DNA of 64,000 nt from a virus, in the IMG/VR virus record IMGVR_UViG_3300030329_004314, positions 21,903-85,902 of that record; one strand, written 5' to 3'. Made by a program: the position numbers and the translations under genes. The notes under the pieces are model-generated. The model ran no database searches, was not told the DNA's origin, and saw nothing but the letters and a program-made list of their open reading frames with translations. The number at the start of each line of letters is the position of its first letter. Position 1 is the stretch's first letter. Below are positions 28 to 63,798 of the stretch, one piece after another.

Positions 28-34
28 TTTTGAC

Positions 35-3953: not shown

Positions 3954-3977
3954 AGGATAATCCCTTACTTGATAGCA

Positions 3978-7482: not shown

Positions 7483-7494
7483 TACGATTCCGCA

Positions 7495-9083: not shown

Positions 9084-9544
9084 TATGGTCTTTGTCCCTC
9101 TACTAATAACTTATGTTCAAAAGTCTGTTTTTTAATTATCTTTAACCCATGTGTTGACTCTAGATAATGAGCTAAACTAATTACAGTGATAGCGTTTTTT
9201 CTGATAAACGGTTCTTCTTCACCATATAGCATAGAATTTATGTCTGCTATACTAATGTCGTGTTCATAAAAAGACTTGCATATAGAATGTGAGTCAGCAG
9301 CACCAATAATTATTTTTCCACCATGTCTAAGTTTGCTGACCCAATGGTCTATTATACCTAACACTTCATTTTTACAGAAAAAATTTATAACATCTAATGC
9401 TAATATTTCAGAAGCTTCTGCGTCGTCAATGAATTCTGTCAAGTCTGTCATGTTTCCATGATGACAACCTTCAGAAGCACCTAAATGGTTTACATTCAAA
9501 TATCCACTGAGTGGTGCGCCTCCATATAATAAGTTAACCTTCAT
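9083..9544 (-). CDS. Short methyltransferase-fold protein
   Basis: A 153-residue protein resembling the second half of a class I methyltransferase: a strand with ASEILALDVINFF, then a helix and the motif-III-like KLRHGGKIIIGAADSHSICK. The usual glycine-rich motif I is replaced by YGGAPLSGYLNVNHLG, so SAM binding is doubtful. It may be an inactive or specialised relative of phage predicted methyltransferases. It touches the preceding gene with a one-base overlap at the start codon. Confidence 0.5.
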   Translation of the reverse strand: MKVNLLYGGAPLSGYLNVNHLGASEGCHHGNMTDLTEFIDDAEASEILALDVINFFCKNEVLGIIDHWVSKLRHGGKIIIGAADSHSICKSFYEHDISIADINSMLYGEEEPFIRKNAITVISLAHYLESTHGLKIIKKQTFEHKLLVEGQRP

Positions 9545-11664: not shown

Positions 11665-13349
11665 TTTGGATCAGCGGCCTTTATAAATTCTGGAACATAA
11701 TCACTAGGATTTGTTCTGATATGCTCCCAATAGTTATTTACTTCACACATTTCTTGGCAGAATTCAATCACCTCTTTAGATGTATAAGGAACTTGCGACC
11801 TTCTTCTCTCAGCAAATGCCGAAGATTCATCTAAATTGTATGCACCATTGATTGGAGAAACAGAGAATCCTATGTTGAGGTCTCTAAGCATCCTTTGACA
11901 TAGATAGCTATCTTTCTTACCTACGTCTCCCCATATATTGCATATGCACCATTCAACAAAGTCTTTCTTAGACAAGTTAGTAGGAATTTCTTGCTGTGGA
12001 TTATGTGTTCTTGCAGGAGAGTCCCAAGTCTGGTCATGAGGAACTATCTCTACAGTATCAAAGTGGTCTTCCCATTTTTTTGCTGTTTTGTCCCAGTCGT
12101 ATCTATCTGTTGCGCATTTGTAAGTATTCTTGGAAATACTATCTCTTTCTTCTTTACTTTTTGAAAGTAGAGAATACAACTTTGTAATGAAATCTTCTTC
12201 TATTGGGTATGCTCTGTATGTGTGGGTCTCATATTCTCTGAACATAGTGCAGTCGATAGGCACGCCTCCTACATTTCTTACCACAGATGACATTGCAGAA
12301 TAATCAACAGACATAACTGGCACGCCACAAAAAGCAGCTTCAACTTGTGGCATACCAAAGCCTTCACATATGCTGTACTGAACATAGACATCAAAACAGT
12401 TAATAATGTTTGCTAACTGCGAAGATGATATTCCTCCTTGAGTAGAAGGCATAAAAGCTGAAATATTACCCGTTGGAGGACAGACGGTTCTTCCTCCTTT
12501 AAAGAATGAAGGGAATGTATACTCACAATCTTTACAGTCGTAAGTCACAAGCACTTTACTACCAACTCCTGATTCCCTTATTAATCTAGGAATGTCCCAT
12601 CCTAAGTCTGGATAGGTTGTGTGCATGTAAAGATAAGTCTTCTCTCCAATCTCAGGGTATCGTTTCACAAACTCTGCAAATGCCTGAAGAAGCTCTGGGT
12701 ATAGTTTTCTTTTTTGATTCCTCATGACGGTTCCAATGATGAAAATATCATCTTCAAAACCCATTTCTTTACGAAATTTTTTCCTATCTTGTGGCGGCTT
12801 AAATATTTTTCTATCTGCCGCTGGAGAGCATATGTCTAATACCTCAATTAGGCCATTGGTCTCTTCCTCTAAAACTTCTTTTCCATATTCAGAATATGTG
12901 AACACGGCATCAGCATCCATATAGGTAGCAAGCCATTCTTCTTGGTTTGGCGCTGAGTCTATAGTAGGCATAATTACCCAATGATAAAAAGGTCTAAAAG
13001 GAGACCTTTGCTCAAACTCCATCATCCACCAGTCACGAATATCGCAAACTATGTCTGGCTTAAAGTTCAGACAGACATCTTCAAACCTCCAAGCCCCAAA
13101 TTGATTCAATGCATTAGACATGTACTGTTGGTGTGCGACAGTATCATTTTCATGAGGAGCATTCCCATAAAACTTCCAAGGAATACCTGCTCTTCTTTTG
13201 TCGTCATAAGTTGAATAACAGGCGAACTCAGCAAGTTCGTATTTTCCAGTAGCATACAGTCTGGACATAACCTCCTTCGTATAGATGGAGTATCCAGTAT
13301 GCATGAAAGATGCTTCTGTACAAAAAAGAATTCTAGGTTTTCTATTCAT
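11661..13349 (-). CDS. Large GT4-like glycosyltransferase
   Basis: A 562-residue GT-B enzyme, longer than usual. The C-terminal fold starts around IIGTVMRNQKRKLYPELLQA and contains SICEGFGMPQVEAAFCGV and DYSAMSSVVRNVGG. An inserted segment (VTYDCKDCEYTFPSFFKGGR) contains a C-x2-C pair. The last 120 residues (from about 440) are an extra domain with WCICNIWGDVGKKDSYLCQR of unknown role. The ATG at 13349 is chosen because it overlaps the SSB stop (AATGAATAG); the upstream start would overlap the SSB gene by 35 bases. Confidence 0.82.
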   Translation of the reverse strand: MNRKPRILFCTEASFMHTGYSIYTKEVMSRLYATGKYELAEFACYSTYDDKRRAGIPWKFYGNAPHENDTVAHQQYMSNALNQFGAWRFEDVCLNFKPDIVCDIRDWWMMEFEQRSPFRPFYHWVIMPTIDSAPNQEEWLATYMDADAVFTYSEYGKEVLEEETNGLIEVLDICSPAADRKIFKPPQDRKKFRKEMGFEDDIFIIGTVMRNQKRKLYPELLQAFAEFVKRYPEIGEKTYLYMHTTYPDLGWDIPRLIRESGVGSKVLVTYDCKDCEYTFPSFFKGGRTVCPPTGNISAFMPSTQGGISSSQLANIINCFDVYVQYSICEGFGMPQVEAAFCGVPVMSVDYSAMSSVVRNVGGVPIDCTMFREYETHTYRAYPIEEDFITKLYSLLSKSKEERDSISKNTYKCATDRYDWDKTAKKWEDHFDTVEIVPHDQTWDSPARTHNPQQEIPTNLSKKDFVEWCICNIWGDVGKKDSYLCQRMLRDLNIGFSVSPINGAYNLDESSAFAERRRSQVPYTSKEVIEFCQEMCEVNNYWEHIRTNPSDYVPEFIKAADPK

Positions 13350-13689
13350 TAAGATCTTGCCACTGAGGGTATTCAAATTCGTTTACTCTAAATCTGACTT
13401 TTTGTGTTTTGTGTCCATCGTCATCAGTATAAGTATCTACTTTTGCAGAACTATGGACAGCAATCCAGTCTCCAACATCAAAGCTGTCAAAGATTCTTTG
13501 GCCACCAGAATCCCAAGCCTCAAAGTCTAAATAACTTTTGCGTGTGCCTGCTTCTCCGTTTTTCTTTTCAAATTTTCTCCCAACTTCGAGAGTAAAATTA
13601 ATTACTGGAACACTTCTTCCGTCTTTTCTTTCAACAACTTTGCGAAGTATTGGCCTAGCAATTTTTCCAACAAAATGACATTTGTTCAT
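13342..13689 (-). CDS. ssb: Single-stranded DNA-binding protein (OB fold), diverged
   Basis: A 115-residue OB-fold protein with the SSB order: CHFVGKIARPILRKV, then VINFTLEVGRKFEKK, SYLDFEAWDSGGQRI and DWIAVHSSAKVDTYTDDDG. It would coat single-stranded DNA during replication. It lacks the acidic, phenylalanine-ended tail of classical SSB; the end is WQDLNE. A second, more classical SSB lies at 56.2 kb. It sits directly downstream of the polymerase genes, separated by 62 bases that hold a possible promoter. Confidence 0.75.
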   Translation of the reverse strand: MNKCHFVGKIARPILRKVVERKDGRSVPVINFTLEVGRKFEKKNGEAGTRKSYLDFEAWDSGGQRIFDSFDVGDWIAVHSSAKVDTYTDDDGHKTQKVRFRVNEFEYPQWQDLNE

Positions 13690-36401: not shown

Positions 36402-36516
36402 TTTTATTCCTTCTATTTATCACTTTTTTTTCCTCTCTTTTTAGTAGAAACATAGCAGACAAAGCCACAAAAATTTCTATAGACCAAGCTAAAAGTCCAG
36501 CTAGTATGGCTTCCAC
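36391..36516 (-). CDS. Small single-pass membrane protein
   Basis: A 41-residue ORF with GTG start (VEAILAGLLAWSIEIFVALS then AMFLLKREEKKVINRRNKN). Residues 3-24 are transmembrane, the tail is basic. GGAGGGG lies six bases before the GTG, and the GTG overlaps the previous stop (TAGTG). Function unknown. Confidence 0.6.
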   Translation of the reverse strand: MEAILAGLLAWSIEIFVALSAMFLLKREEKKVINRRNKNVN

Positions 36517-37571
36517 TACAGCCCCTCCATAACTTTTTGTGCAGAATTAGTCCATGAAAAATTTTCTGCTGTCAAACGGCCTTCTTCATTATATGTCTTG
36601 CCTGATTGAACCTTGTCATGAACAGTTCTCATTATATCAACCATTTCATCAATATGTCTATCTTCTATTTTTGCCCAGTTTCCTTGTCCATTGAACCATA
36701 TTCCATCAAATGCCTTTTCTGTTTTTTGTATATCAACTAGATGGCAATTGTCTTGATTGCAAAATTCTGTGTGGGCAGAGTAGTTAGTAGATATTACATG
36801 CTTTCCACAAGACATCATCTCTAGAAGCTCAAGATTCCAGCCCTCTGCTCTTGAAGGGAATAAGCCACAATGCGAGTCACCCATTATTCTTGATAGTTCT
36901 TCATGAGTTTCTACACGAGGAATAATTTTTACTTTGTCTCCTAGTTTTGAACCTCTATAAAATCTCTGCCAGTTATGTGTTTGTTCATCACTAAGAAATG
37001 GGTTGCTGTTCATCATCCATAATTGAACATTATCTTTTTTGGTAAAGGCTTTATTAAATATCTTAGCAATAATATCGTGTCCTTTTCTCTTTTCCCACTT
37101 ACCAATATTTATAAACACAGTATCTGACTGATTAGACTCTTGAACAGAGAATACGTTTGAGTCAACGCCAAGAGGGGCGACACTAACATCCATGTCTGGG
37201 ATGTGGTTTAATATTATTGACTTCGCCCATTCTGAGCAAACGATTATAGAATCTAACTGTGACAGGTGATGCATCTCTTGTGTTGAGAACTTATCTAACT
37301 CAAATATAGGAAAGCCTACACGTTTTCCTCTTCCGACATGCATTGCCATATCATGCTGATGCCAAAGTCTCAAGCTAACAGCATCAGGATTAAAAAGCTT
37401 TTGATTTTCTATGTAATGAGCAACAGATTCAGCATCTGCCTTACTATCTACTTCAGGACTTCCTATTGGAAAATAACAAACATCTGCCATTACTCCCAAC
37501 TTTTTTAATATATTCCATCCTGCTACTCCATATCCCAAACTATTAACGGGGGAAATGTAATTGATATCCAT
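36516..37571 (-). CDS. GT4 family glycosyltransferase
   Basis: A 351-residue GT-B enzyme. The second fold starts VFINIGKWEKRKGHDIIAKI and holds EGWNLELLEMMSCGKHVI, followed by NYSAHTEFC, the usual GT4 donor site (about residues 238-265). The N-terminus (MDINYISPVNSLGYGVAGWN) fits a GT4 acceptor domain. ATG 37571 is preferred (TTAGGA upstream); ATG 37604 adds 11 residues. The acceptor is unknown. Confidence 0.86.
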   Translation of the reverse strand: MDINYISPVNSLGYGVAGWNILKKLGVMADVCYFPIGSPEVDSKADAESVAHYIENQKLFNPDAVSLRLWHQHDMAMHVGRGKRVGFPIFELDKFSTQEMHHLSQLDSIIVCSEWAKSIILNHIPDMDVSVAPLGVDSNVFSVQESNQSDTVFINIGKWEKRKGHDIIAKIFNKAFTKKDNVQLWMMNSNPFLSDEQTHNWQRFYRGSKLGDKVKIIPRVETHEELSRIMGDSHCGLFPSRAEGWNLELLEMMSCGKHVISTNYSAHTEFCNQDNCHLVDIQKTEKAFDGIWFNGQGNWAKIEDRHIDEMVDIMRTVHDKVQSGKTYNEEGRLTAENFSWTNSAQKVMEGL

Positions 37572-37585
37572 CCTTATTCCTAAAT

Positions 37586-37861
37586 CTACATTCTTTGATT
37601 CCATCTATTTTTGGCATCATCAAAGCTACTACAGTCCTCAGTCATGCACCCACAGTCTTCACACTCATACCAATAGTAAGGATTAACACCCCATGTGCTT
37701 GCCTGCGCCATCGCTGATCCTCCACAAAAAGGACACGGCAAGAGGGATTCCCCCGTAAACTTTGACACTTGGATGTCATGCCTGCCACACTTTATGCACC
37801 ATATTGGTTTGTTGTCTGCATTTACGATTCTACTGCAACAACTAAGTATATATCTGTCCAT
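37586..37861 (-). CDS. Lar-like restriction alleviation zinc protein
   Basis: A 91-residue protein. The C-terminal part matches the Lar family of phage and prophage antirestriction proteins: LPCPFCGGSAMAQ, WYECEDCGCMTEDC and FDDAKNRWNQR. The first 40 residues add another CC...CIKCGRHD zinc site. Family members relieve type I restriction by an unclear route. Zinc-binding is confident; anti-restriction activity is family inference. Confidence 0.75.
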   Translation of the reverse strand: MDRYILSCCSRIVNADNKPIWCIKCGRHDIQVSKFTGESLLPCPFCGGSAMAQASTWGVNPYYWYECEDCGCMTEDCSSFDDAKNRWNQRM

Positions 37862-37873
37862 AGTCTAGCGTCT

Positions 37874-38884
37874 TTACCACATTTTGCATGACCAATATCT
37901 TGGCGTTGTTTTGTCCTTAGCCGTATCGCATTTGTGTCTGGCACGAAAACTTTTTCTTCTAGCGGGGTTATCTCTTTTTATTTCCATGTTTGGATCGCCA
38001 AAGTTGACTTTAATAACATTGCCTTTTTGGTTTTTAACATACACAGAAAACTTTTTTGGCCCATCTGGAGTTCTAAAAGGTTTATTAAGAGTTACTTTTC
38101 TTCCTTGATATTCAGCGGCTTTGCCTTTGTATCGCAAGGTAACTCCGTCTTTCTTATAAACGCCTCTTCTTACATATGTAAATATTTCTCCAGTTTTAGG
38201 ATGCTCATACTTGTAGTCGCCTTTTGCTTCTTTAGACTTTTTAGGAGAGTGCTTTTCATACCAATCTTTAAATTCTTTCATGTTTTTTCCGGGCATATAA
38301 ATTGTTTTGCCGTCTCCAGTTTTATGTGGATGAGCAAAAGGCTTTAGACCTATTTCTTTAGCCATCTTGATTGCTTTTTCTTCGGAATCAAAAGCATACT
38401 TTTCCATTGGGCCAGCATCATGAGACATGTCTTTATACATGTAGCCTTTACCTGTTGGTTTTTGTGCCTTCTTCCAAGACTCAGGGTCTGGTCTATCAGG
38501 ATCTCCCGGCTTTGCGGGCTTATATTTTTTGCCTTCTCTTTCTTTCTTCTTTCTTATATTGTCCCAGAGTCCGGGCTTTGCTTCTGCAATATCCCATTCT
38601 TCTGTTTCTTCTCCGAAGTCTACATAATCTGAATCTTCTGGAACAACAAAATTTTCAGCAGTAATATCTTCTGTGTAACCAATTGTATTGCAGAACTGAT
38701 CCGCTGCCTGCATATACTTATCTTTATTATCAAACATATATTCACCGTCTCCGTCACTATTAAATTGGCTGTAGCAAAAAGCTAATCTTTGTTCGTTTTC
38801 TGGAAAAGTTTCCTTAGACTTAGGATCTGACATACATCTTGAAACAAAATCCCTTTGACTTTCCCCTGATTTTGGTGAAGGCAT
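37874..38884 (-). CDS. Putative virion/head-associated protein
   Basis: A 336-residue, lysine-rich protein. The N-terminus (MPSPKSGESQRDFVSRCMSD, then RLAFCYSQF) and the C-terminus (RRKSFRARHKCDTAKDKTTP, RYWSCKMW) both match short motifs that recur in large-phage head-maturation or scaffold-associated proteins. The middle (YKYEHPKTGEIFTYVRRGVY) is beta-rich. ATG 38884 follows GGGG and gives the motif start; the upstream ATG at 38944 adds 20 basic residues. Exact virion role is inference. Confidence 0.6.
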   Translation of the reverse strand: MPSPKSGESQRDFVSRCMSDPKSKETFPENEQRLAFCYSQFNSDGDGEYMFDNKDKYMQAADQFCNTIGYTEDITAENFVVPEDSDYVDFGEETEEWDIAEAKPGLWDNIRKKKEREGKKYKPAKPGDPDRPDPESWKKAQKPTGKGYMYKDMSHDAGPMEKYAFDSEEKAIKMAKEIGLKPFAHPHKTGDGKTIYMPGKNMKEFKDWYEKHSPKKSKEAKGDYKYEHPKTGEIFTYVRRGVYKKDGVTLRYKGKAAEYQGRKVTLNKPFRTPDGPKKFSVYVKNQKGNVIKVNFGDPNMEIKRDNPARRKSFRARHKCDTAKDKTTPRYWSCKMW

Positions 38885-38940
38885 TTCAGTTACCCCTTTT
38901 TTTTTACTAATGTATTTATTTTTGGATTTTTGAAGAGATA

Positions 38941-39339
38941 TCAATAGTCCCTATATATTAACAATGTAATATGATAATAATCTAGCTCGACTTTTACTTG
39001 GATCTTGTTTATCGCTGATTTTGCTGCGGAAACATACTTTTCATCAGTTTTATCTCTTACTATTAATAATACACCGGGAGGCCTATTAGTTAGCCTAGAA
39101 TAATGTGCTGCTTGTCCTACAGCTTCATACCATTTTTTAGCGAAGTCAACTTCGATAGCTAGGCAATCAGTAAGTATATCTACCCTTGTCCCATCAGGAA
39201 GCCTATACTCAACTTCTCCCTGCAATATTTGGTTGCAATGTAATTGATACTCTCTCTCTGTACGAAGCCCTTCATGAACAATCTTTTCTATTTGAGGGTG
39301 CTTTCTACCCCATAAGAAGCTGATGACTTTGTTTAACAT
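38941..39339 (-). CDS. PD-(D/E)XK-like nuclease
   Basis: A 132-residue protein. EYRLPDGTRVDILTDCLAIE then VDFAKKWYEAVGQAAHYSRL (about residues 43-82) gives the D...ExD-x-K core and a GQAxxY helix typical of small PD-(D/E)XK nucleases. The N-terminal REYQLHCNQ may contribute the first acidic helix. Context is GT and virion genes rather than replication. Function unproven. Confidence 0.62.
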   Translation of the reverse strand: MLNKVISFLWGRKHPQIEKIVHEGLRTEREYQLHCNQILQGEVEYRLPDGTRVDILTDCLAIEVDFAKKWYEAVGQAAHYSRLTNRPPGVLLIVRDKTDEKYVSAAKSAINKIQVKVELDYYHITLLIYRDY

Positions 39340-40609
39340 TTATCTTATCTCTCACTAGATTCATACACTTTATCTTGTTTTCTACGCCAACAGTCCAATT
39401 TCCATGATGCAATATCGCTTTTTTTTCTGGAGATATATCTTCTCCAGACCATGCTTTTCGATTATTGGAATATCCAATTGTATAGTATCTCTTTGGGCAT
39501 AAGGAGACACTTGTTATATATTCATCTTTAAGTTGATTAAATGCTTCCTGATCATGCATATATTTATCAACATCTGAAAGCATATGCTTAAATAGTCTCA
39601 TATTTTTATCATTATTCTTAAATATAAAAAACCCTAAACATATCGTGTCTGGTTCACAGTCTAGTTGTCCTGCAAAATCATTGTCTCCCAGACAACAGTA
39701 AAGATCTTTGATGAATGGAGAAAAGTATTGCACATCTGGGTCAGACCATATGATGTAGTCTGAATCATCATTCTCCATAGTCTTTATAGTCCATTCCCAT
39801 TTGTCCTTCATTGTTTGGTTGAATCCAGTAGAAGGCGGTTTTCTAGCGTCTCCCCAGCTTCCTTCTGGGTCTCTTTGAGGAGTTACTGTCACCACTATGT
39901 CATCACAACTCCACCCACAGTCTGTAACAGATGGAAAAAAGTATTCATCATAAAATCTTTTGTGAGTACCCGTATAAAACGTGTACATGGTAATTTTTTT
40001 ACTTTTTAAATCATGAATTGGCTTGAGGTGACACGGCTCTGGAAACTTTCTCTTTCCATCAACGGTAGAATGCTGTGAGGAAGTCCTGAAAGGGGTAGTA
40101 TGTAAATGATTGGCGATAATATCTAAACATGGATTGCTTACGTTATAACCTGAGCTTTCAAGTTCTTGCGCAAATACGTTATCGCATCCTCGCTGACCAA
40201 GACAAAATGCTCCATTGATTCCTTTTTTTACTGCACCTTTGACTATCCATGTGTCCTGAGATCTAGATTGACTTTTAACTACATGAGCATCTAAAAACTT
40301 TGACTCTAATGTGCCTTTAGGTAGATCCCATCTACTCAACGCATAAGCATCGTCGTCTCCCATATGACGACACAAATCAATTGACTCATCAAAAAAAATA
40401 TCTGCATTAGATAGAATATTAATATCATCAGGAAAAATTTTTGTAAATTCGATGAATCTTCCATAAGTCAGCATCCCATTTTCAGTATTTATAATAAATA
40501 TGTTATCTATATATCTATTATAAGTGTTGAGGAGAAGGCACTTTTCATACTCTTTGTTTCTTACAGAATTATTTGTCTTTACATTTTGTACAAACAGGTT
40601 AATATTCAT
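39305..40609 (-). CDS. Two-domain glycosyltransferase
   Basis: A 434-residue protein with two GT-A-type domains. Domain 1 (about residues 1-190) has TYGRFIEFTKIFPDDINILS followed by NADIFFDESI and ends near HLHTTPF. Domain 2 (about 205-434) has MYTFYTGTHKRFYDEYFFPS, DYIIWSDPDVQYFSPF (donor DxD), GQLDCEPDTICLGFFIFKNN, DQEAFNQL and a late ILHHGNW, as in GT77-like and related families. A gene fusion of two transferases is the simplest reading. It overlaps both neighbouring genes. Confidence 0.72.
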   Translation of the reverse strand: MNINLFVQNVKTNNSVRNKEYEKCLLLNTYNRYIDNIFIINTENGMLTYGRFIEFTKIFPDDINILSNADIFFDESIDLCRHMGDDDAYALSRWDLPKGTLESKFLDAHVVKSQSRSQDTWIVKGAVKKGINGAFCLGQRGCDNVFAQELESSGYNVSNPCLDIIANHLHTTPFRTSSQHSTVDGKRKFPEPCHLKPIHDLKSKKITMYTFYTGTHKRFYDEYFFPSVTDCGWSCDDIVVTVTPQRDPEGSWGDARKPPSTGFNQTMKDKWEWTIKTMENDDSDYIIWSDPDVQYFSPFIKDLYCCLGDNDFAGQLDCEPDTICLGFFIFKNNDKNMRLFKHMLSDVDKYMHDQEAFNQLKDEYITSVSLCPKRYYTIGYSNNRKAWSGEDISPEKKAILHHGNWTVGVENKIKCMNLVRDKINVKQSHQLLMG

Positions 40610-41379
40610 TTGCTTATATCCTTCAAGTGATCCACATACGCTTGAATATAGTGGTCTGGAAAAACCTCTCTTGGGTTTTCTAATATTCTGTAGTCCTTGT
40701 CTATTTCCCCCAGTAGATGACTTGGCAACCTAGATGTTTTGTGACCATAAAAGTCATGAAGATGAATATGGCAAATTTTAGGCTCATAGAACCTTCTCTT
40801 TGTTGGGTTTACAGAGCAGTCTTGAGTCTTGTTTGTTTTATGCTTGCTTCTCCATCCCTGTTTGTACCTCATTTTTTCTGATGACCTCCAAACTCTAATA
40901 TGTGGATCGTGCATGACGAAAGTGCTTCCGTATGCAGAATTTCTGTCCCATATATAAATAGACGGAGATATAAAAGGAAAACAACTAAGATCAACTACTT
41001 TGTCTATTTTTTCGTCAGTCATATATGTCAATATATCTTTCAGAAGCGGAGTGAAAAACTCATCAGGATCACAGCAGATAATCCACTCATTGCCCTTTTC
41101 TTCTGCCAAACTAACTCCATAGTCACGACAAGCTATCTCATTAAAGCCTCCGTTTATAACTGACTTATCAAATCCAGACCCAAAGTCTTTCCAGTGTTCA
41201 GTAACTTTAAAATACTCTCCTTCTAATTCACCAAAGTAATCTGGCCTTTTTGGATCTGTATGCAAGACAACTATATCAGTAACCCACCAGTAAGAACTCA
41301 TTGTTTTTACAGAGTCCTTGATGTAAAACCAGTCAGGTAAGCTGTTAATGTAATAAACTGTAGAAGTTACGTTTTTCAT
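40606..41379 (-). CDS. GT2/GT92-like glycosyltransferase
   Basis: A 257-residue GT-A enzyme. WFYIKDSVKTMSSYWWVTDI is followed by CRDYGVSLAEEKGNEWIICC and the donor/metal site DPDEFFTPLLKD (about residues 100-115). Further on, HIRVWRSSEKMRYKQGWRSK and HIHLHDFYGHK form acceptor-side histidines. Closest by pattern to GT2 or GT92 enzymes. It overlaps the two-domain GT by four bases. Confidence 0.76.
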   Translation of the reverse strand: MKNVTSTVYYINSLPDWFYIKDSVKTMSSYWWVTDIVVLHTDPKRPDYFGELEGEYFKVTEHWKDFGSGFDKSVINGGFNEIACRDYGVSLAEEKGNEWIICCDPDEFFTPLLKDILTYMTDEKIDKVVDLSCFPFISPSIYIWDRNSAYGSTFVMHDPHIRVWRSSEKMRYKQGWRSKHKTNKTQDCSVNPTKRRFYEPKICHIHLHDFYGHKTSRLPSHLLGEIDKDYRILENPREVFPDHYIQAYVDHLKDISK

Positions 41380-42774
41380 TTATATTCTGAATGAGTCTCC
41401 ATTATGATCTTCGCACCAGTTCATATAGTTGTACAGTAAAATTTGGCTAGGGTTTACGAATATTTTTCCACCATTATCTTTGATAGCTTTATTAAACACT
41501 ACATGCTCTGATGTTTCTCCTGAATATCTAGCACCAGAGTCAATGATATCTTTTAACTTATAAACTGCCATTCCTCCAAAACAAGAATTTACTTCTAAAA
41601 GAGGATCTCCTCTCTGAAGTGACGCATATCGAGAACCATATCTCATCATCTGTGTTCTTGATATTCTTAGTTCAGTGTGTTCTAAATCTCTATGAGGAAA
41701 CGTATCCCAATACCTAATTGATTTCCTCAAAGTATTCTTTCCATTTGAACCCATTACTGACCAATCATCATGAGAGATGCTGTGTGCTATTCCGTCATAG
41801 CTGAATCCTCCTATCAAATCTAAATCTACAGGTATATAGTAATCAAAGTCAGGAGCAATCTCTATTATCTTGTCTAGACATATATTTCTACAGTGAGCAA
41901 GTCTTTCTGTTCTTTCTTTAAGTCTTCCTCCTATTCTTTCTAAGCTCAAACTTTCAGACATACATATTCTTTTGTCAGGGTCTCTCTTCGACCAATCATT
42001 TAGATATAATCCTGTTGCATCTCTAGAGTCATTTTCATATGTCACAAACACACAGTCCTTAAAAAGACTAGACAAATGCTCAAGTCTAGGGATACCAGTC
42101 GTCTCAAGGCAATGTTTTACATCTCTAGCCAGACCACATATTACCAATTTTGATTTGGACATCCTTTCATATCCATTAACGACTCTTTTTCGATAGTCTT
42201 CTTCCATGACAGGAACGAACTTGTTCTCTGGAAATTGATGAAGCCAAGAGTCCTTCATTGATTGCAAAGAGCCAGAGTGATTTATATTCATATCTCCACA
42301 ATCAAAATATTTAGCATTTAGATATATAACTTGATGGTTATTAAATATTGCATTTATAGTTACTTCTTCACTAAAGTCCTGCCCTTGATTGTAAGAATAA
42401 GCTTCTCTTAGCATGAAACAAACATCAGCAACCGCAAAACCTAAGCAACTATGCCTGAAGTGGCCTGAAGGAATGGCAACAACCCCATGATCTTTCTTCA
42501 TCATTAGTTGAGTTAGACAGTGGAAAATTGTATTCTCTTTGAGCCTAAGACCTTCTGGTGAGAAAAATATATACTTAGAATCGCCTTGAGATATTAAGTA
42601 AGGCAAATCCTTATCAGGAAAGATGGATATGCTCTTAAATCTAATGTCGTTTTTTTCTAGAGGTTGGTTGGTGGATATGTACAGATTAATCAGGTGAGAT
42701 TCATTTTTGAATCCTGCTAGATCATTTAGGTCTTCTGTAACAATGCAAACGTCTACAGATTCAAATCCACTCAT
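41380..42774 (-). CDS. Two-domain glycosyltransferase, C-domain GT69-like
   Basis: A 464-residue protein. The N-terminal ~200 residues are GT2-like (INLYISTNQPLEKNDIRFKS, YIFFSPEGLRLKENTIFHCL, CGDMNINHSGSL). The C-terminal ~255 residues resemble GT69 (Cap59/CMT1 mannosyltransferase): VICGLARDVKHCLETTGIPR, DCVFVTYENDSRD, AHCRNICLDKI, YYIPVDLDLIGGF and EVNSCFGGMAVYKL. GT69 is known mainly from fungi, so this is an unusual phage relative. Acceptor unknown. Confidence 0.7.
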   Translation of the reverse strand: MSGFESVDVCIVTEDLNDLAGFKNESHLINLYISTNQPLEKNDIRFKSISIFPDKDLPYLISQGDSKYIFFSPEGLRLKENTIFHCLTQLMMKKDHGVVAIPSGHFRHSCLGFAVADVCFMLREAYSYNQGQDFSEEVTINAIFNNHQVIYLNAKYFDCGDMNINHSGSLQSMKDSWLHQFPENKFVPVMEEDYRKRVVNGYERMSKSKLVICGLARDVKHCLETTGIPRLEHLSSLFKDCVFVTYENDSRDATGLYLNDWSKRDPDKRICMSESLSLERIGGRLKERTERLAHCRNICLDKIIEIAPDFDYYIPVDLDLIGGFSYDGIAHSISHDDWSVMGSNGKNTLRKSIRYWDTFPHRDLEHTELRISRTQMMRYGSRYASLQRGDPLLEVNSCFGGMAVYKLKDIIDSGARYSGETSEHVVFNKAIKDNGGKIFVNPSQILLYNYMNWCEDHNGDSFRI

Positions 42775-43537
42775 AATCTTCTACATCAGATAAGATAGTA
42801 GCCATTTCAGAAAAGCTACTGTTTTTTGTTCCTACTATGGCGTTGCATCTTGAAAGAGAGCAAAAGTCTGTAATTGCTTCTCTGATGCCCATTATAGATC
42901 TGTTTCTTACTACTGGCCTTTGCGATACTACTAAATCTCCATATTTCTCAGCAAATTTGTAATAGTATTGTGTTGTGTCCGAACAGAAAAATATTTTAGG
43001 ATCACTGTGCGATCCTAAGAATTCTTCAACAAAAGGATAGCACTTTTCAAGAGTCCCTCCAAAAGTCTTTCTTATATGAACACCAATAGTGTTTTTGGTA
43101 AAGTTAGATATTATTATCTTTACTCTTTGATGTATGTCTTCTTTTGGCCTCACTAATCTTTTTAGATAAGGCCTTACTTTTTCCTTTGTATTCCAATCTG
43201 AACAGTAGTAACAAGAACAAACTTCAATCCATTTATGATCTGAGTCTTTTAGTTGGTTTGCCTGTTTCAGCTTATATCTCTTCAACCTGCCAGACTTAAT
43301 TAGTTCTTCTCTGTCTTGCCCTTCATAACAGCGGTCATAATCACCTAAGAAACTCGCAAGGTTAGGCCTGAATATCTGGTTCCAATGTGCATCACAACCT
43401 ATTGGTGGAACCCATCTGAGAGCAAACCTTCTCCCCATTTCTTCCGCAGCAGCCCAGCAAGAGGAAGAAGATTTCAAACGGTCGCCAAGACCGTTTCTAG
43501 GCCATGCCACCAAATACTTAACGGAGGGGTCTGACAT
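42761..43537 (-). CDS. NodZ/GT23-like fucosyltransferase candidate
   Basis: A 258-residue protein. N-terminal WPRNGLGDRLKSSSSCWAAA, then the HxRK motif (NTIGVHIRKTFGG, about residues 149-161), a nucleotide-binding KIFFCSDTTQYYYKFAEKYG, and REAITDFCSLSRCNAIVGTK. This order matches NodZ and GT23 alpha-1,6-fucosyltransferases, which use GDP-fucose. The phage also encodes GDP-fucose synthase at 4.8 kb. NodZ has HIRHGNGE; here the residues after HIR differ, so the donor is likely but not certain. Confidence 0.68.
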   Translation of the reverse strand: MSDPSVKYLVAWPRNGLGDRLKSSSSCWAAAEEMGRRFALRWVPPIGCDAHWNQIFRPNLASFLGDYDRCYEGQDREELIKSGRLKRYKLKQANQLKDSDHKWIEVCSCYYCSDWNTKEKVRPYLKRLVRPKEDIHQRVKIIISNFTKNTIGVHIRKTFGGTLEKCYPFVEEFLGSHSDPKIFFCSDTTQYYYKFAEKYGDLVVSQRPVVRNRSIMGIREAITDFCSLSRCNAIVGTKNSSFSEMATILSDVEDYEWI

Positions 43538-43835
43538 GAAAAGTTGACTTTATTCTTTTTAGAAATTTCCTAGATCTTCCTTGATGTTCTGCTTCCAAGT
43601 ATGCAAGTAAAGGACAATCATATAAGAGATCGTATATGACACCTAATTCTTCTGCTTCGTCTGGCTTCTTGTCTAAGACTAGGTTTGCTATTGCTACTTC
43701 TATCACTTCGATAAGTCTGTGCTGCATATAGCAAGCAGGGCAAGAGTAGAAAGATTCTCCTTCTTCAATTATTCCACTACCATCACAAGAATCGCAATGG
43801 AGTATCTTATTATTCGGTTTTTCTGGATTGTCCAT
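43518..43835 (-). CDS. DnaJ-type zinc-finger-like protein
   Basis: A 105-residue protein with CDSCDGSGIIEEGESFYSCP then ACY, the CxxCxGxG and CxxC pair of a DnaJ central zinc finger (one zinc site). The remaining 70 residues are helical and acidic (VIEVAIANLVLDKKPDEAEE). It has no J domain. It overlaps two GT genes by 20 and 26 bases. Possibly a protein-binding cofactor; unproven. Confidence 0.6.
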   Translation of the reverse strand: MDNPEKPNNKILHCDSCDGSGIIEEGESFYSCPACYMQHRLIEVIEVAIANLVLDKKPDEAEELGVIYDLLYDCPLLAYLEAEHQGRSRKFLKRIKSTFHVRPLR

Positions 43836-44562
43836 TGTATCGCCTTTGGGGTAGGTTAATTAGGTACTCTTCCAACCTATTTATTACCGTCCTCATTGGC
43901 GTAAAATATTTTCTACACCGTCTGACCATTTCCGTTCTTTCAGACCTATGTGTTGGTCTTCTATGAATAGCGTGCTTGTCAGGCAGTCTTTTTAACTTGA
44001 TAGGAATTTGCAAGTTTCTTTGTCCGAATACACTCATAGCACAGTATGAGATGAATATGTCCTCATGAAAATTATTTGTCATTGTTTTGATTTCATATTT
44101 GCTATAGAAGTCAAACTCACATGACAAAACATATGGTATCAATGATCTAGGAACACACGCAGCAGACGTTATAACAACTTCTACTGCTCCTTTTGCGTTG
44201 ATATAGTTATATCCTCCGTCTGCGTCTGGTACTCTTCCAGAGGCACAATAAATTCTTTCTGGGTCAGACTTAAAAAATCTCCAAAAAGTATCAAAGCCTT
44301 CTTCTTCAATGATTACATCGTCATCCTGATATACTAGACATTCATTGGTAGCCAAAACTGCGTTTGCCCACCGAGTTCTAAGACCTAAATCTAAATTTGT
44401 ATTTATTATTTTTACTTTTTCATTCTTTATGTAATCAAAATAAACATCAGGATTATTATTAAAGACTATAATCTCATCAACAAGCTCATAATCTTTTTGT
44501 TTATTTAATATCCTGAGTACGTTTTCAGGTCTCTTCCATCCATTGATTAGTACACTAATCAT
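43810..44562 (-). CDS. GT64/GT2-like glycosyltransferase
   Basis: A 250-residue GT-A enzyme. ISVLINGWKRPENVLRILNK is followed by LGLRTRWANAVLA, the DxD site ECLVYQDDDVIIEEEGFDTF (about residues 79-98), GAVEVVITSAACVPRSLIPY and the acidic NFHEDIFISYCAM. This is close to exostosin-type GT64 catalytic domains. ATG 44562 overlaps the previous stop (ATGATTAG). It is the eighth-to-last GT of the right block and lies next to the zinc-finger gene. Confidence 0.76.
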   Translation of the reverse strand: MISVLINGWKRPENVLRILNKQKDYELVDEIIVFNNNPDVYFDYIKNEKVKIINTNLDLGLRTRWANAVLATNECLVYQDDDVIIEEEGFDTFWRFFKSDPERIYCASGRVPDADGGYNYINAKGAVEVVITSAACVPRSLIPYVLSCEFDFYSKYEIKTMTNNFHEDIFISYCAMSVFGQRNLQIPIKLKRLPDKHAIHRRPTHRSERTEMVRRCRKYFTPMRTVINRLEEYLINLPQRRYNGQSRKTE

Positions 44563-44908
44563 CTGCGCTTTCAATAAGCTCCTGTATTTCCTCGTCCGAC
44601 AATTTGTATGCCGTCTTTAATATAGAAGACAGGATATTATCGGTCAAATCTTTGTCATTTCCAACCTCGTCGGAAATTTTTTTTCTAAGAAGAGAAACTT
44701 GTATTTTTGTTGGTTTTCTAAACTTCTCAGAAATAATCCTAAAAGATTCGCTGCAATCTTTAATCATCTTGATAGATTCTAGAACAACACCAGCAACAAT
44801 CAAAGCTAAGGCAGGATCTACATTTATAACAGATTCTCTACCATCAGTTTGTTTATAGTATTCTTGACAGACAAGTTCTGAAAACTTTACATAATTCATC
44901 TTGTTCAT
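44555..44908 (-). CDS. Unknown protein
   Basis: A 117-residue protein starting near ATG 44908 (MNKMNYVKFSELVCQEYYKQ). DPALALIVAGVVLESIKMIK is a hydrophobic helix, followed by SLLRKKISDEVGNDKDLTDN and an acidic end. It may be membrane-associated. No family recognised. Confidence 0.55.
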   Translation of the reverse strand: MNKMNYVKFSELVCQEYYKQTDGRESVINVDPALALIVAGVVLESIKMIKDCSESFRIISEKFRKPTKIQVSLLRKKISDEVGNDKDLTDNILSSILKTAYKLSDEEIQELIESADD

Positions 44909-44918
44909 CAGACTTAAA

Positions 44919-45119
44919 CTAACAGCACCCACATTCACATGGACAATCTTGGCAATCAAGACAGGCTTGTTTAATTGCTACATCATCGCCCATGACGCTG
45001 TTTACCTTTTCCACTACTTTAGGATTTTGAGAAGCTATAACCATGCCAAGTAGGATACCTACAGCAAAAGGAATAACTTTCATTATGCTTTTCTTTTTTG
45101 ATTTATTTTCTTCTGACAT
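44919..45119 (-). CDS. Membrane protein with cysteine-rich tail
   Basis: A 66-residue protein. A transmembrane segment is at about residues 14-33 (VIPFAVGILLGMVIASQNPK). The last 14 residues (CLDCQDCPCECGCC) hold seven cysteines. ATG 45119 follows CGGAG; the TTG upstream is not used. The tail could bind metal ions or be a disulfide knot outside the membrane. It starts a run of three small membrane-protein genes. Confidence 0.6.
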   Translation of the reverse strand: MSEENKSKKKSIMKVIPFAVGILLGMVIASQNPKVVEKVNSVMGDDVAIKQACLDCQDCPCECGCC

Positions 45120-45120
45120 T

Positions 45121-45417
45121 TTATTTCTCCGCAATAAGATTTATAGTTTTTAGTTTTGTTTGATCGTCAGGAACAATCTCTACTCCCATTTTTTCAAGAG
45201 TGTTCAGGGTCTTCAAGTTAACTTGTAGTAATATACTGTCTCTAATCACACTTTGTGCTGTAAATTTTCTCACCTCATCCATAAACATTTTTTGCTCAAT
45301 ATCTATAGAATTATTTTCTACTTTAGGTGGTGTTGTTTTCTTTTTAAAAGTGTTAATAGAGTTTATTAATAAATTAACGGCAAGTAGTATCACTATTGCC
45401 CTCAAATAAGCATTCAT
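45121..45417 (-). CDS. Small membrane protein with coiled tail
   Basis: A 98-residue protein when started at ATG 45417 (MNAYLRAIVILLAVNLLINS). Residues 5-22 are transmembrane, the rest a helical, possibly coiled tail (KMFMDEVRKFTAQSVIRDSI). No signal cleavage site or lipobox. One base separates it from the Cys-rich gene. Function unknown; a virion or lysis link is only positional. Confidence 0.58.
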   Translation of the reverse strand: MNAYLRAIVILLAVNLLINSINTFKKKTTPPKVENNSIDIEQKMFMDEVRKFTAQSVIRDSILLQVNLKTLNTLEKMGVEIVPDDQTKLKTINLIAEK

Positions 45418-45427
45418 GGTTACACCA

Positions 45428-45682
45428 TTAGAAAAACAGCTTATATACCAAACCAACTACTCCAGCAGCAATAGAAAGCCATTTTAGTACAGAAGCTAAG
45501 GCCAATAACAAATCTTTCAAAGGTCTAGGTTTGTCCTGTTTCCACTGCCTCTTATCTTCGATCTTTTCGTCACGGTCTTTCTCTCTCTGGTCTTTTTTCT
45601 CTTCTCTCTCTTGTTTTCTTAATTGTGACTTTGTTTTGTTTTCTTCAACAATTTCAACTATCCGGTTCATTTTTTTCACCAT
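45428..45682 (-). CDS. Coiled-coil protein with C-terminal membrane anchor
   Basis: An 84-residue protein. A highly charged coil (KTKSQLRKQEREEKKDQREK, then DRDEKIEDKRQWKQDK) leads into one or two C-terminal hydrophobic segments (LLLALASVLKWLSIAAGVVG). Starts at ATG 45682 or 45670 are equally possible. The tail-anchored layout is unlike known holins; it may tether a protein complex to the membrane. Confidence 0.55.
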   Translation of the reverse strand: MVKKMNRIVEIVEENKTKSQLRKQEREEKKDQREKDRDEKIEDKRQWKQDKPRPLKDLLLALASVLKWLSIAAGVVGLVYKLFF

Positions 45683-46238
45683 ATAAGGATTGTATTCTAG
45701 GTATGTCATCATCTTTCTGTGGCTCTTTAATCATTGGATTATAGTGAGGAGCCATCAAAGCCTTTGGTACTTCAGAATGTGTTAGCCCAAGTATATGTCC
45801 TATTTCGTGAGTAGCAACATTAAGAAGTAATATCCCTTTGTTTGAAAGAGAAGATGACCAAATTTCATCAGTGTCAAATCTCATAAGTAGTTGACCAGTA
45901 AAGTTATCTTTAGGTGGCAAAAAAGCCCAAGCTAAAGTACCCATCGGGCCATCAAAATGATATTCTTGTCCTTTTCCAATATCTATAATAACATTTGCAG
46001 ACTCATCTTCAATTTGTTCAAAAGACAAGTTTGTTACGTTTTCCCAAGATTGGAAAGCCTTCTTTATAATCTCATCCCACTTTTGTGGTTCAAGATCATC
46101 ATCCCTGTTTCGTATGTAGTATTTTATGTGATCTATTCCCCATTTGTTCAGACTACCGTCTGCTCGTATAAAACTGGGACAACCACATCTAGGAACACCA
46201 AAAGAATCAATATAAGAAATAGCCAACTGTGTATTCAT
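45654..46238 (-). CDS. Matrixin (MMP-like) metalloprotease with cysteine switch
   Basis: A 194-residue zinc protease. Zinc motif HEIGHILGLTH is at residues 144-154, with the Met-turn methionine at 162 (KALMAPHY). The catalytic-domain front matches animal matrix metalloproteases: NKWGIDHIKYYIRNRDDDLE, FDGPMGTLAWAF and FDTDEIW. At residues 15-21 there is VPRCGCP, equivalent to the MMP cysteine switch PRCGxPD, which keeps the zinc blocked until activation. No signal peptide or prodomain fold precedes it. A late-type promoter motif lies upstream. Confidence 0.85.
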   Translation of the reverse strand: MNTQLAISYIDSFGVPRCGCPSFIRADGSLNKWGIDHIKYYIRNRDDDLEPQKWDEIIKKAFQSWENVTNLSFEQIEDESANVIIDIGKGQEYHFDGPMGTLAWAFLPPKDNFTGQLLMRFDTDEIWSSSLSNKGILLLNVATHEIGHILGLTHSEVPKALMAPHYNPMIKEPQKDDDIPRIQSLYGEKNEPDS

Positions 46239-46271
46239 TGCACAAATCCCCCTCAAAAATTGGTGCTAATA

Positions 46272-46283
46272 TATAATACACCA
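46272..46283 (-). promoter_or_regulatory. Late-promoter-like motif
   Basis: On the minus strand TGGTGTATTATA is followed by TATT, 30-40 bases before the metalloprotease start. It shares 12 bases with the motif before the virion-like gene at 34.05 kb. The interval (46239-46284) is otherwise empty. Confidence 0.5.
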
Positions 46284-46284
46284 A

Positions 46285-47208
46285 CTAGAGAATCTCTAAA
46301 CCATGAATGCAATGTCTAATATCTGTCTCTAGAACAATCTCTCTTTTATACCTTAGAGTTTCTAGGTCAAATACTAGAATTCTAGCTGGAGATGAACCTA
46401 TAAAGAGAAGGTTATCTTTCCTAGCAAGACCTCTATTCCAGTTGTCTTCAGCCACTTTATCTGAACTTTGATCGGCATGTCTGGATGATGGGACAGGAAT
46501 GAGTAGCTCTTGTCCCTGACTAACTATTTTTATGTGTCTCAGGGTTGTCTTGTTAGATATTATCATGTCTGGGTACTCGTAAAAATTATGAGTGAACCCG
46601 CCTGAAGTTCTTGGGGCTACCAGATTTCCTGTCTCGACTTCGTATAAATCCGACAACGCTGCTGAGAATACCACTCGGCCATTGAACGCCGAGATTGAGT
46701 TTATGTGGTTTTCGTCAGTCCTCTGATTCATACAGCTTGATGTCGAGTTACAGCTTGCTTCTTCGCAACTAACTTCTTTAACACTAACTATTTTCTGGTA
46801 GTCATCAAAGTATTCAGCCTCACATTCCCATATTTTCTGTACATTAAAGTCTAAGTCTGTTTTGACAATACAATTTCTGCCTGTCGATGTAACCCAGATC
46901 GAGTCATCATGAAAACATATTTCGTGAATTGATTGAAACGCAGTTGGGTTTTCTACTTTTTTTACAATCTCATAAGTGTCTTTGTCTAGTTCCATCAGTC
47001 CTGTAGCACCAGCCACAATGATTCTGTCATCAAGAACTTCAATCCCACGAAGACCCCTCTCCCCTCCTCTCTCATTGTAATTAACAAAGTCTGAGCTTAG
47101 AGGTTTATGATAGACTATGTCGTCTTTTTCTAAGTCTATTACATACAAGCCGCCATGAGTTTCTCCTTGCTCGGCTGCTCTAACGACTGTTGTGCATATT
47201 ATCTTCAT
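46285..47208 (-). CDS. Beta-propeller-like protein
   Basis: A 307-residue protein with repeated four-stranded units: GGLYVIDLEKDDIVYHKPL, GLRGIEVLDDRIIVAGATGL, IHEICFHDDSIWVTSTGRNC, HINSISAFNGRVVFSAALSD and NRGLARKDNLLFIGSSPARI. Six or seven such blades form a beta-propeller, similar to proteins found near glycan and radical SAM genes. A CSCEEASCNSTSSC-like Cys cluster lies in the middle. No catalytic residues are obvious; a binding role is more likely. It overlaps the next gene by four bases. Confidence 0.65.
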   Translation of the reverse strand: MKIICTTVVRAAEQGETHGGLYVIDLEKDDIVYHKPLSSDFVNYNERGGERGLRGIEVLDDRIIVAGATGLMELDKDTYEIVKKVENPTAFQSIHEICFHDDSIWVTSTGRNCIVKTDLDFNVQKIWECEAEYFDDYQKIVSVKEVSCEEASCNSTSSCMNQRTDENHINSISAFNGRVVFSAALSDLYEVETGNLVAPRTSGGFTHNFYEYPDMIISNKTTLRHIKIVSQGQELLIPVPSSRHADQSSDKVAEDNWNRGLARKDNLLFIGSSPARILVFDLETLRYKREIVLETDIRHCIHGLEIL

Positions 47209-47768
47209 AGATCAAAAAATAGCCATCTCTTTTTTGGGCGTATGTTATCGTAATTAATATTATCCAAGTAGTCTGTTAATTCTTCCCACTTGCCAAATAT
47301 ATTATCGTGAGGTATAGCGCCAAGAAGCCAGTCTGGTGTTGCTTCTTTACCCTGCTCAACTCTAACAATAATAGGTTTCATTTGTCTGTTAGCTAAAAAC
47401 AGTTCTTCATAAGTGCCGCAAGGATGAACATCTAAGTCTAGATTTACAATCAAGAAGTCTGATATATCAACCATTCTAAGATCAGTATTCCTAATGACCC
47501 TCATATCTGAAGCAATATGATCGTAATGACCTTGCTGTTTTAATTTTTGTCTGTTTTCTCTATTTTCGGAATCTTCAAAACCAATGTTAATAGGCTTCTT
47601 GCAAGGATCTAAGACTACTACGTTTCTTGCTTTTAGGTATACGGATATTTTTTCTCTCCACCCAACTCCTCCATCAGAAACTCTATCCATAGCTCCTGAA
47701 AGGTAACACCTTTGATTCTTTAGCTTATTCACTTTTACTGGGAGATTCATTGTGTATTTTTTGTCCAT
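47205..47768 (-). CDS. Nucleoside 2-deoxyribosyltransferase-like protein
   Basis: A 187-residue protein. CYLSGAMDRVSDGGVGWREK (N-terminal fold start), NVVVLDPCKKP, RNTDLRMVDISDFLIVNLDL (acidic active-site strand) and HPCGTYEELFLANRQMKPII with the catalytic glutamate. The order fits the deoxyribosyltransferase/YtoQ fold, whose members swap bases on deoxynucleosides. It could salvage bases during phage DNA synthesis. It has a one-base overlap with the next gene. Confidence 0.72.
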   Translation of the reverse strand: MDKKYTMNLPVKVNKLKNQRCYLSGAMDRVSDGGVGWREKISVYLKARNVVVLDPCKKPINIGFEDSENRENRQKLKQQGHYDHIASDMRVIRNTDLRMVDISDFLIVNLDLDVHPCGTYEELFLANRQMKPIIVRVEQGKEATPDWLLGAIPHDNIFGKWEELTDYLDNINYDNIRPKKRWLFFDL

Positions 47769-48673
47769 TATAAACCTCTATTTGCAATTTCTTCTACAAA
47801 CTCAAATGCTTCTTCTCTTTTCATTCCGTCTTTTTCTAAAAATTCAACTAAAGGGATAAAACCTCTTTGATTTAAGGGAGACTTATTTTTTCTTCTCTTC
47901 TCTTTGAAGTGTGACCAGTATGTCTGATGCTCAAGTTCAACAGGGTAAGTGAACATCCATTGAATATTTACCCATTGGTCAACCCTTAACATGCTTGTCG
48001 GACAACTCCTTCCATATTTTATATCCAACACTTTATAGTTACTCCTATAGCCAGCCATGAAGAACCATATTTTGTCAAACCATCTTATAGGCCAAAGCCT
48101 CTGTTCTTGCGACATGTAGCCATATATTTCCTTGAGCAAGTCTGTTCTAACTACACAATGATTTGGTGCCTGCCAGTTTTCTACTGTCAAATACCTATCT
48201 ATTCTTTCCAGCCTATCATCACTATAAAAATTTGTTTTTATGTAAAAGTCTTCTGGTTCTTTCCAAAAAAGCTCTTCTCCACAATGCCATCTTCCTTGAG
48301 CAAATTGGTACTCTTGGTTTTGTTTTAGAAAAGATAAAACCTCCTTAATAGCATCCTTGTAGATTACATCGTCATCTGGTATCTCAACAACATATGGTGT
48401 CTCTACCAGATCAAGAGCCTTGAACATCTTCCTATAATAAACTTCATTTGGCTCATGTATATAGATTATTTCTTCAGACTCAAAATAATGAGGAAAGAGT
48501 TCATGATCCTTGTACTTTTTAGACAAAGAATAATTCATTGAAGACATTGGCTTGTCTGTTGAATCTGTCAGAATTATTTTACAAGGAAAGTCATCATAAT
48601 ATTCTAAGAATTCATCAAGAAAATTTTCTCTGTAATGAAGAGGACATATGATTGTCAAGTCGTCTTTTAACAT
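47768..48673 (-). CDS. GT-A-fold glycosyltransferase
   Basis: A 301-residue enzyme starting at ATG 48673 (MLKDDLTIICPLHYRENFLD). Donor features are KIILTDSTDKPMSSMNY and the DxD-type VVEIPDDDVIYKDAIKEVL (about residues 93-111), then HCVVRTDLLKEIYGYM. It resembles the 'TIGR00180' group of glycosyltransferases. There is no clear Shine-Dalgarno site, and in-frame ATGs exist at 48706-48703. It is the last GT of the right block. Confidence 0.72.
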   Translation of the reverse strand: MLKDDLTIICPLHYRENFLDEFLEYYDDFPCKIILTDSTDKPMSSMNYSLSKKYKDHELFPHYFESEEIIYIHEPNEVYYRKMFKALDLVETPYVVEIPDDDVIYKDAIKEVLSFLKQNQEYQFAQGRWHCGEELFWKEPEDFYIKTNFYSDDRLERIDRYLTVENWQAPNHCVVRTDLLKEIYGYMSQEQRLWPIRWFDKIWFFMAGYRSNYKVLDIKYGRSCPTSMLRVDQWVNIQWMFTYPVELEHQTYWSHFKEKRRKNKSPLNQRGFIPLVEFLEKDGMKREEAFEFVEEIANRGL

Positions 48674-48791
48674 TTTTGAAACCGCTTGTTCCCGCATCAA
48701 CATCATGAACCAGACTGCATCAGGTAGTACAAACCACTGGCTCCCACACAAAAATCAAGAGCAGATTAGATAAGCTGACACAAAGTGTTCA

Positions 48792-48923
48792 TTAGGAATT
48801 AAAATAGTCTAGTATTAGTTTTGCAAGAAGAAATATAGAAATTAAGAATGGCACTAACATTCCAGACAATAATACTAATAACCAACCTCTTGCTTGATTG
48901 ACTTCTGTAAATATCTTTTTCAT
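48792..48923 (-). CDS. Small single-pass membrane protein
   Basis: A 43-residue ORF (MKKIFTEVNQARGWLLVLLS then GMLVPFLISIFLLAKLI). Residues 13-38 are strongly hydrophobic. Its ATG overlaps the stop of the nuclease-like gene (ATGA), and it lies in a gap where no longer gene fits. Function unknown. Confidence 0.6.
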   Translation of the reverse strand: MKKIFTEVNQARGWLLVLLSGMLVPFLISIFLLAKLILDYFNS

Positions 48924-51161: not shown

Positions 51162-51185
51162 GTTTCTTCTCCTATAAAAATAAAG

Positions 51186-51258
<73 letters not shown>

Positions 51259-63381: not shown

Positions 63382-63454
63382 CTTCGAGGTACTCCACATA
63401 ATCTACCCACTCTAGTCCAAACATTTCAATTAGGTCATCTTCAGTAACTGTCAT
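63374..63454 (-). CDS. Tiny protein with FGLEWxDYVEYL motif (copy 1)
   Basis: A 26-residue ORF (MTVTEDDLIEMFGLEWVDYV, then EYLEDE). AAGGAGATTGAAG leads to its ATG, a strong ribosome site. It is a near-paralogue of the ORF at 63.78 kb. Its own end encodes the start module of the next gene. Confidence 0.55.
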   Translation of the reverse strand: MTVTEDDLIEMFGLEWVDYVEYLEDE

Positions 63455-63468
63455 CTTCAATCTCCTTT

Positions 63469-63798
63469 TTATGGAACAACAAGATCATAAAGAACTCTGT
63501 ATAAGTCTTCGCTGTATTCCCGAATCTTTTTCTCTGCCGCTTCCAGTCTTTTATCTGGACTTGCGTAAAGTCTGACTTCTAATTGTTCGGAGTCATATCC
63601 TTCAGAATATGCCTCAGTTACGGAATATAATAAGTCTTCTTTATCTGAAAGTATATTAACCATATCTAATACTTCCTTTTCATATCCTTTAATAAACTCT
63701 TCAAAGTCTTCATACCAACATTCATCATCCGATATTCGAGGAATAGAGGGAATCTCTTCCCTATCTAAGCAACTAGCAATCTCATAAATACTCCACAT
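63469..63798 (-). CDS. Small acidic protein
   Basis: A 109-residue protein from ATG 63798 (MWSIYEIASCLDREEIPSIP, then YEDFEEFIKGYEKEVLDMVN and DSEQLEVRLYASPDKRLEAA). GGGGAG precedes the ATG. Helical and acidic. No family recognised. Confidence 0.58.
   Translation of the reverse strand: MWSIYEIASCLDREEIPSIPRISDDECWYEDFEEFIKGYEKEVLDMVNILSDKEDLLYSVTEAYSEGYDSEQLEVRLYASPDKRLEAAEKKIREYSEDLYRVLYDLVVP

Follow-up and report, generated by a model that had tools for sequence, protein, structure and literature searches.

A matrixin gene with a cysteine-switch motif in a tailed-phage genome and its relatives in other phages

Several metzincin proteases are known with a short pro-segment. Karilysin of Tannerella forsythia, which has a bacterial MMP-type catalytic domain, carries 14 residues and an aspartate as its latch, as opposed to the cysteine of the protein described below, myroilysin carries 37 residues, and mirolysin, a secreted bacterial enzyme of another metzincin family (pappalysin), carries 34, in which an Arg and a Cys-Gly motif (R21, C23, G) block the zinc (PMC6949598, PMC8259862). 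Promirolysin mutated at Cys23 was activated in minutes instead of days (PMC8259862), and by these precedents short segments can keep metzincins latent through either a Cys or an Asp switch. In Listeria prophages, a metzincin adjoining the holin-lysin genes raises lysis sensitivity, which may serve as an experimental analogy for a lysis role of a phage matrixin (PMC8235301). This Mtz-Tim system resembles the present locus in combining a phage metzincin, often beside holin-lysin genes, with an adjacent small envelope protein, and differs in the Sec signal of Mtz and in its partner being a lipoprotein; the part of that study cited here mentions no cysteine switch (PMC8235301).

Insect viruses (granulovirus, ascovirus, iridovirus, entomopoxvirus) likewise carry an MMP fold; these are eukaryotic viruses of animal hosts, and identities are at most ~35% and mostly <30%. 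Finding an M10 protease in a phage is, by itself, no novelty, as distant phage M10 proteins are present in databases, and the annotated matrixins of Lactobacillus phage 3-521, Maribacter phage Colly_1 and uncultured Caudovirales share the M10-type fold while being only 9-20% identical to the branch described here. Phages go unmentioned in the main text of a survey from 2025 on the transfer of MMP genes (PMC12587646). In the literature searched, a branch lacking the structural zinc, with a minimal cysteine switch and a lysis-like context, appears to be undescribed.

The matrixin gene and its phage relatives

The DNA analysed (hereafter the window) comprises 64,000 nt of IMGVR_UViG_3300030329_004314, positions 21,903 to 85,902. 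A minus-strand ORF extends from an ATG at 46238 to a stop at 45654, encodes 194 aa and has a ribosome-site-like GAGGGGG ~10 nt 5' of the ATG; the translation includes VPRCGCP (C18), FDGPMGTLAWAF, HEIGHILGLTH and ALMAP. An earlier note on this DNA had read the product as a matrixin in a phage, and this was borne out. The Pfam Peptidase_M10 profile was matched over its whole length (1-159 of 159) with 132.9 bits and E 1.3e-38 against a curated cut-off of 24, and phmmer matched human MMP-9 (E 1e-29) and MMP-13 (E 3e-29). Structure prediction, one of the checks which the earlier note had proposed, gave an AlphaFold2 model with a mean pLDDT of 88 (catalytic part mostly >92, residues 1-12 of low confidence, vicinity of the switch moderate only), and its top Foldseek matches were MMP-13 and MMP-2. 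With similarity this far above chance, 45654-46238 (-) is confirmed to encode a real M10 matrixin, which would be expected to act as a zinc-dependent endopeptidase. The features of the gene are as follows.

45654..46238 (-), phage matrixin (M10), 194 aa, called by ORF, profile, phmmer and fold prediction
46143..46238 (-), putative pro-segment, residues 1-32, of which 4-14 (QLAISYIDSFG) correspond to prodomain helix 1 of the phage relatives
46179..46193 (-), cysteine-switch motif PRCGC, residues 16-20, with C18 conserved in 28/28
45774..45809 (-), zinc-binding motif HEIGHILGLTHS, residues 144-155, ligands and catalytic Glu conserved in 28/28
45753..45755 (-), Met-turn methionine M162 (ALMAP), conserved in 27/28

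The same virus is represented in IMG/VR by another, longer contig, IMGVR_UViG_3300030098_005028 (143 kb; G001), which has an identical gene, is 98.6-100% identical to the window across all overlaps and represents a tailed-phage genome encoding terminase, tape measure, PhoH, RNR and rIIA. G001 also encodes a phage-borne M19 membrane dipeptidase (L143:759-2598, E 6.7e-47) that adjoins a ClpP-like gene near terminase. The near-identical G001 lacks ~364 bp at window 63425-63788, which contains most of a 116-aa ORF and, with ~35 bp common to both junctions, looks like a small insertion or duplication. A tRNA-Arg (tct) at window 51185-51258 shares 87% identity with tRNA-Arg genes from T4-like and Klebsiella phages, to which the window phage is otherwise unrelated at the DNA level.

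IMG/VR was scanned with degenerate DNA patterns that covered the zinc helix and the LAWA region, and ~30 distinct contigs (L numbers below) were found to encode relatives of the window matrixin. In a tree of 43 sequences (phage proteins, animal MMPs and 12 bacterial rows), a 100/100 branch split all phage proteins from the animal MMPs and 10 of the 12 bacterial rows. The phage side also took in two very long rows from planctomycetes, near L136, and strict monophyly is thus not established. The window protein and the short form of L252 (L252-A), 55% identical, were sisters (99/97). Bacterial relatives reached 110 bits at best in 392 Planctomycetota genomes and 155 bits in one Streptomyces protein. 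No PHROG family matched the window matrixin, and when the window protein, L252-A and L125 were compared by tblastn with 50,697 phage records, no relative of the branch was found. Among the matches listed from a scan of genome contigs there were distant bacterial matrixins only, which leaves some likelihood to a host origin. A search with an animal-seeded alignment recovered only the same virus, because its patterns suited animal MMPs. The tree thus places the window matrixin as a member of a phage branch and not as a stray animal-type gene. Horizontal transfer from animals was considered and rejected, since the phage proteins lie across the 100/100 branch and have the loss of zinc ligands in common.

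The catalytic site HExxHxxGxxH is intact in the window protein (HEIGHILGLTH), and the same motif, with three zinc histidines and the catalytic Glu, is present in all 28 aligned phage matrixins. Together with the catalytic fold, the Met-turn, the FDG calcium loop and the PRCG motif, this is what the protein shares with animal MMPs such as MMP-1, -9 and -13. The calcium loop FDGxxG...FDxDE (D96, G97, D122, E125) is retained in the window protein and changed in 11 members with twin-arginine (Tat-type) signals. In contrast, the ligands of the MMP structural zinc (H, D, H, H) are K, Q, W and R; LAWAF stands in place of LAHAF and MRFD in place of AHFD, so that the site is gone. None of the 28 phage members has these ligands, whereas 8 of the 9 MMP or bacterial sequences have the full set of four. 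The match to animal MMPs claimed earlier thus holds for the zinc motif, Met-turn and PRCG, but judged from the alignment the resemblance is incomplete: the structural-zinc ligands, signal, hemopexin domain and prodomain core are all absent from the window protein, which falls on a separate branch.

Two further features of the relatives were observed. In L135, a second, tandem matrixin (7738-8559) has no PRCG switch while the neighbouring copy keeps the Cys, and it is a natural 'unlatched' paralogue. The matrixins of L125, L127, L253, L130, L132 and L254 end, after a Pro-rich linker, in a common short tag (for example ITGIxxLxxIxINGKxVxDFTLI), which may be a docking or sorting tag.

Putative pro-segment and cysteine-switch motif

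Three architectures were found among the phage matrixins. The first (e.g. L124, L125, L130, L131) has a full MMP-type prodomain with PG_binding_1-like helices and PRCGxPD, and no signal peptide. These full-prodomain relatives also match the MMP prodomain: the sequence match of L125 to proMMP-1 spans prodomain and catalytic domain, and its model matches proMMP-10, -1 and -3. The second has a twin-arginine signal of RR-x-F/L type, with RR within the first 12 residues in 11/11, and a short stretch in which the switch Cys is kept. In the third, represented by the window protein and L252-A, 14-15 residues are followed by PRCGC; the window protein has no secretion signal, unlike its 11 Tat-type sisters. 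L252, which is syntenic with the window, carries matrixins of the third and second type ~0.6 kb apart, with two membrane-protein genes (T1 and T2) between them.

Only ~31 residues precede the catalytic domain of the window protein and the ~80-residue helical MMP prodomain is absent, in agreement with the earlier description of a protein without a prodomain fold whose switch lies ~15 residues from the start. Residues 4-14 matched helix 1 of the full-prodomain type with a score of 21.45 (true members 17.8-25.3), which 0 of 100000 shuffles reached, and PRCG follows this match directly. The alternative that the N-terminus is the last prodomain helix was rejected, as this register scores -5.6. The prodomain core was probably deleted between helix 1 and the switch, as far as this alignment indicates; by eye, the N-terminus of L252-A fits helix 1 less well.

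While the remainder of the N-terminal segment varies, the switch Cys is invariant in 28/28 aligned phage matrixins across all three architectures. The earlier note would have been contradicted by an unconserved Cys18 in close relatives; the closest relative, L252-A, has the same short N-terminus and keeps the residue. The window motif is PRCGCPS as compared with PRCGxPD in MMPs, with Arg and Cys kept and Ser for the Asp that most phage members have, a change which may weaken latency. From this conservation and the mirolysin precedent, latency of the window protein through Cys18 appears plausible. Tat is a transporter of folded proteins, so that a latch acting in the cytoplasm would be useful to the exported forms.

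Gene neighbourhood and host

Small membrane proteins are encoded next to the window matrixin.

45428..45712 (-), T1, small charged protein with a C-terminal transmembrane helix, overlapping the matrixin end
45121..45456 (-), T5, protein with a transmembrane helix at its N-terminus, for which the compared loci yielded no relatives
44919..45134 (-), T3, small transmembrane protein with a Cys-rich tail, whose homologue in L137 is two genes from the matrixin
44555..44959 (-), T4, membrane protein, whose homologue adjoins the matrixin in L129 and L248

An internal ATG of T1 near 45670 would reduce its overlap with the matrixin to ~17 nt. Homologues of T1 occur in L252, L137, L141 and L139; in the window and in L252 the gene is the direct neighbour of the matrixin, and in L137 and L141 it is one gene away. 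T4 homologues are also found in the matrixin neighbourhood of L124, L126 and L135. A further membrane protein of 57-60 aa (T6), members of which match PHROG 'holin' families weakly (best E 1e-5), is encoded directly beside the matrixin in L141 and forms a cluster with it, T1 and T2 in L137. In L142, L244 and L140, kilobases separate the T6 and matrixin genes, and in the window this holin-like gene was not found. The small membrane-protein neighbourhood of the matrixins thus recurs across relatives. No peptidoglycan endolysin gene adjoins the matrixin, and there was no lysozyme or amidase among the Pfam matches listed for ~70 G001 proteins in a non-exhaustive search. Predicted secreted trypsin-like proteases are encoded near the matrixin in L137 and L129.

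The window matrixin is surrounded by sugar and glycosyltransferase genes, and ~60-95 kb separate it from the structural genes. Many minus-strand genes for sugar metabolism and glycosyltransferases occupy window 1-13400 and 36500-48800, around and upstream of the matrixin.

A DUF1501 gene, an unusual cargo typical of planctomycete genomes, is present in seven contigs of the phage group, including L252 (8872-10083) and L139 (8255-9508), where at least these two have twin-arginine starts. The L252 protein scored 336 bits, near the 340-550 bits frequent in Planctomycetota, where 41 of 59 genomes were above the cut-off, and far above the maximum of 109 bits in Bacteroidota; a host among Planctomycetota or related PVC bacteria is therefore likely for the group and may, by synteny, be extended to the window phage. 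Peptidoglycan is present in Planctomycetes (PMC4432640), and in Planctopirus limnophila some peptidoglycan-synthesis genes are non-essential, while a Cys-rich YTV-domain protein, nearly restricted to Planctomycetes and suggested to influence wall rigidity, is encoded by an essential gene (PMC10632474).

Possible roles of the matrixin

The family, the intact catalytic residues, the conserved Cys, the lost prodomain core and the recurring small membrane-protein neighbours are observations, while the activity, latency, timing and target of the window matrixin are inferred as follows. It may be a latent zinc-dependent matrixin with a cysteine-switch pro-segment that is active outside the cytoplasm and cuts host-envelope proteins or debris, aiding egress, a tentative reading to which we give a probability of roughly 0.42. 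The enzyme would be made in the host cytoplasm in latent form, the first ~31 residues forming a minimal pro-segment in which Cys18 of PRCG would bind the catalytic zinc and which alone would do the job of the ~80-residue animal MMP prodomain. Once outside the cytoplasm the enzyme would be activated, either through cleaving itself or because the Cys-Zn bond is broken. As the window copy has no signal, its export would depend on lysis, whereas sister copies would leave by the Tat pathway; late in infection the active protease would then cut envelope or debris proteins, possibly working together with the small membrane proteins encoded beside it. Counted against this reading are the absence of T6 from the window, the sugar-gene setting remote from the structural genes, the lack of a signal, the Ser in the switch, the limited model confidence at residues 1-12 and near the switch, the distance between T6 and matrixin in L142, L244 and L140, and the weakness of the holin matches.

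It is unlikely, if less so than the readings that follow, that the protease instead sheds or trims host surface proteins such as receptors, blocking superinfection or the sticking of progeny to debris. The Tat signals of the sister matrixins, the position amid sugar and glycosyltransferase genes and the DUF1501 genes nearby in several related phages would fit, but the window copy, having neither signal nor anchor, would need some other route to get to the surface ahead of lysis, and some relatives cluster with holin-like genes.

Less likely again is a virion protease, either part of the tail or baseplate that serves entry or an enzyme trimming structural proteins at assembly. Processing of virion proteins was one of two roles suggested previously, beside action on host surface protein, and it emerges as the weaker of the two given the 11 Tat-exported sisters and the remote structural genes; moreover, the window protein has no C-terminal extension, and the ClpP-like gene near terminase, assigned by eye, could serve maturation. 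In its favour, full-prodomain members have C-terminal extensions and no signal peptide, and in one of them (L134) the gene lies immediately next to Baseplate_J (E 6.7e-13); the role may therefore not be the same in every branch.

We consider it improbable that the matrixin is the main wall-breaking enzyme, a proteolytic 'endolysin' that a minimal cysteine switch keeps latent in the cytoplasm, that suits planctomycete-like hosts with unusual, partly protein walls, and that is released or activated by the adjacent small membrane proteins. More doubtful still is an intracellular effector that cleaves a regulatory or defence protein of the host: without a signal the window protein and L252-A would indeed stay cytoplasmic until lysis, but close syntenic relatives are exported, matrixins typically work outside the cytoplasm, and a zinc-bound Cys latch is expected to be most stable in the reducing cytoplasm. 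An inactive relic of a prodomain-bearing enzyme is very unlikely, for although the protein has lost the prodomain core and the structural-zinc ligands and has a changed switch Asp, all catalytic residues are intact in an open frame, the same short form recurs in L252 at 55% identity, and the zinc-ligand loss is common to the whole branch.

In conclusion, MMP-type proteases of an apparently undescribed branch occur in several lineages of phages, in which forms with a full prodomain, with Tat export and with a stripped-down N-terminus coexist. The three forms are a natural series for how far the MMP latency module can shrink, and the branch is a source of MMP catalytic domains that lack the structural zinc. 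It also provides a testable case of a protease, and not a peptidoglycan hydrolase, aiding the exit of phages, and the probable host phylum is one for which phages have hardly been studied.
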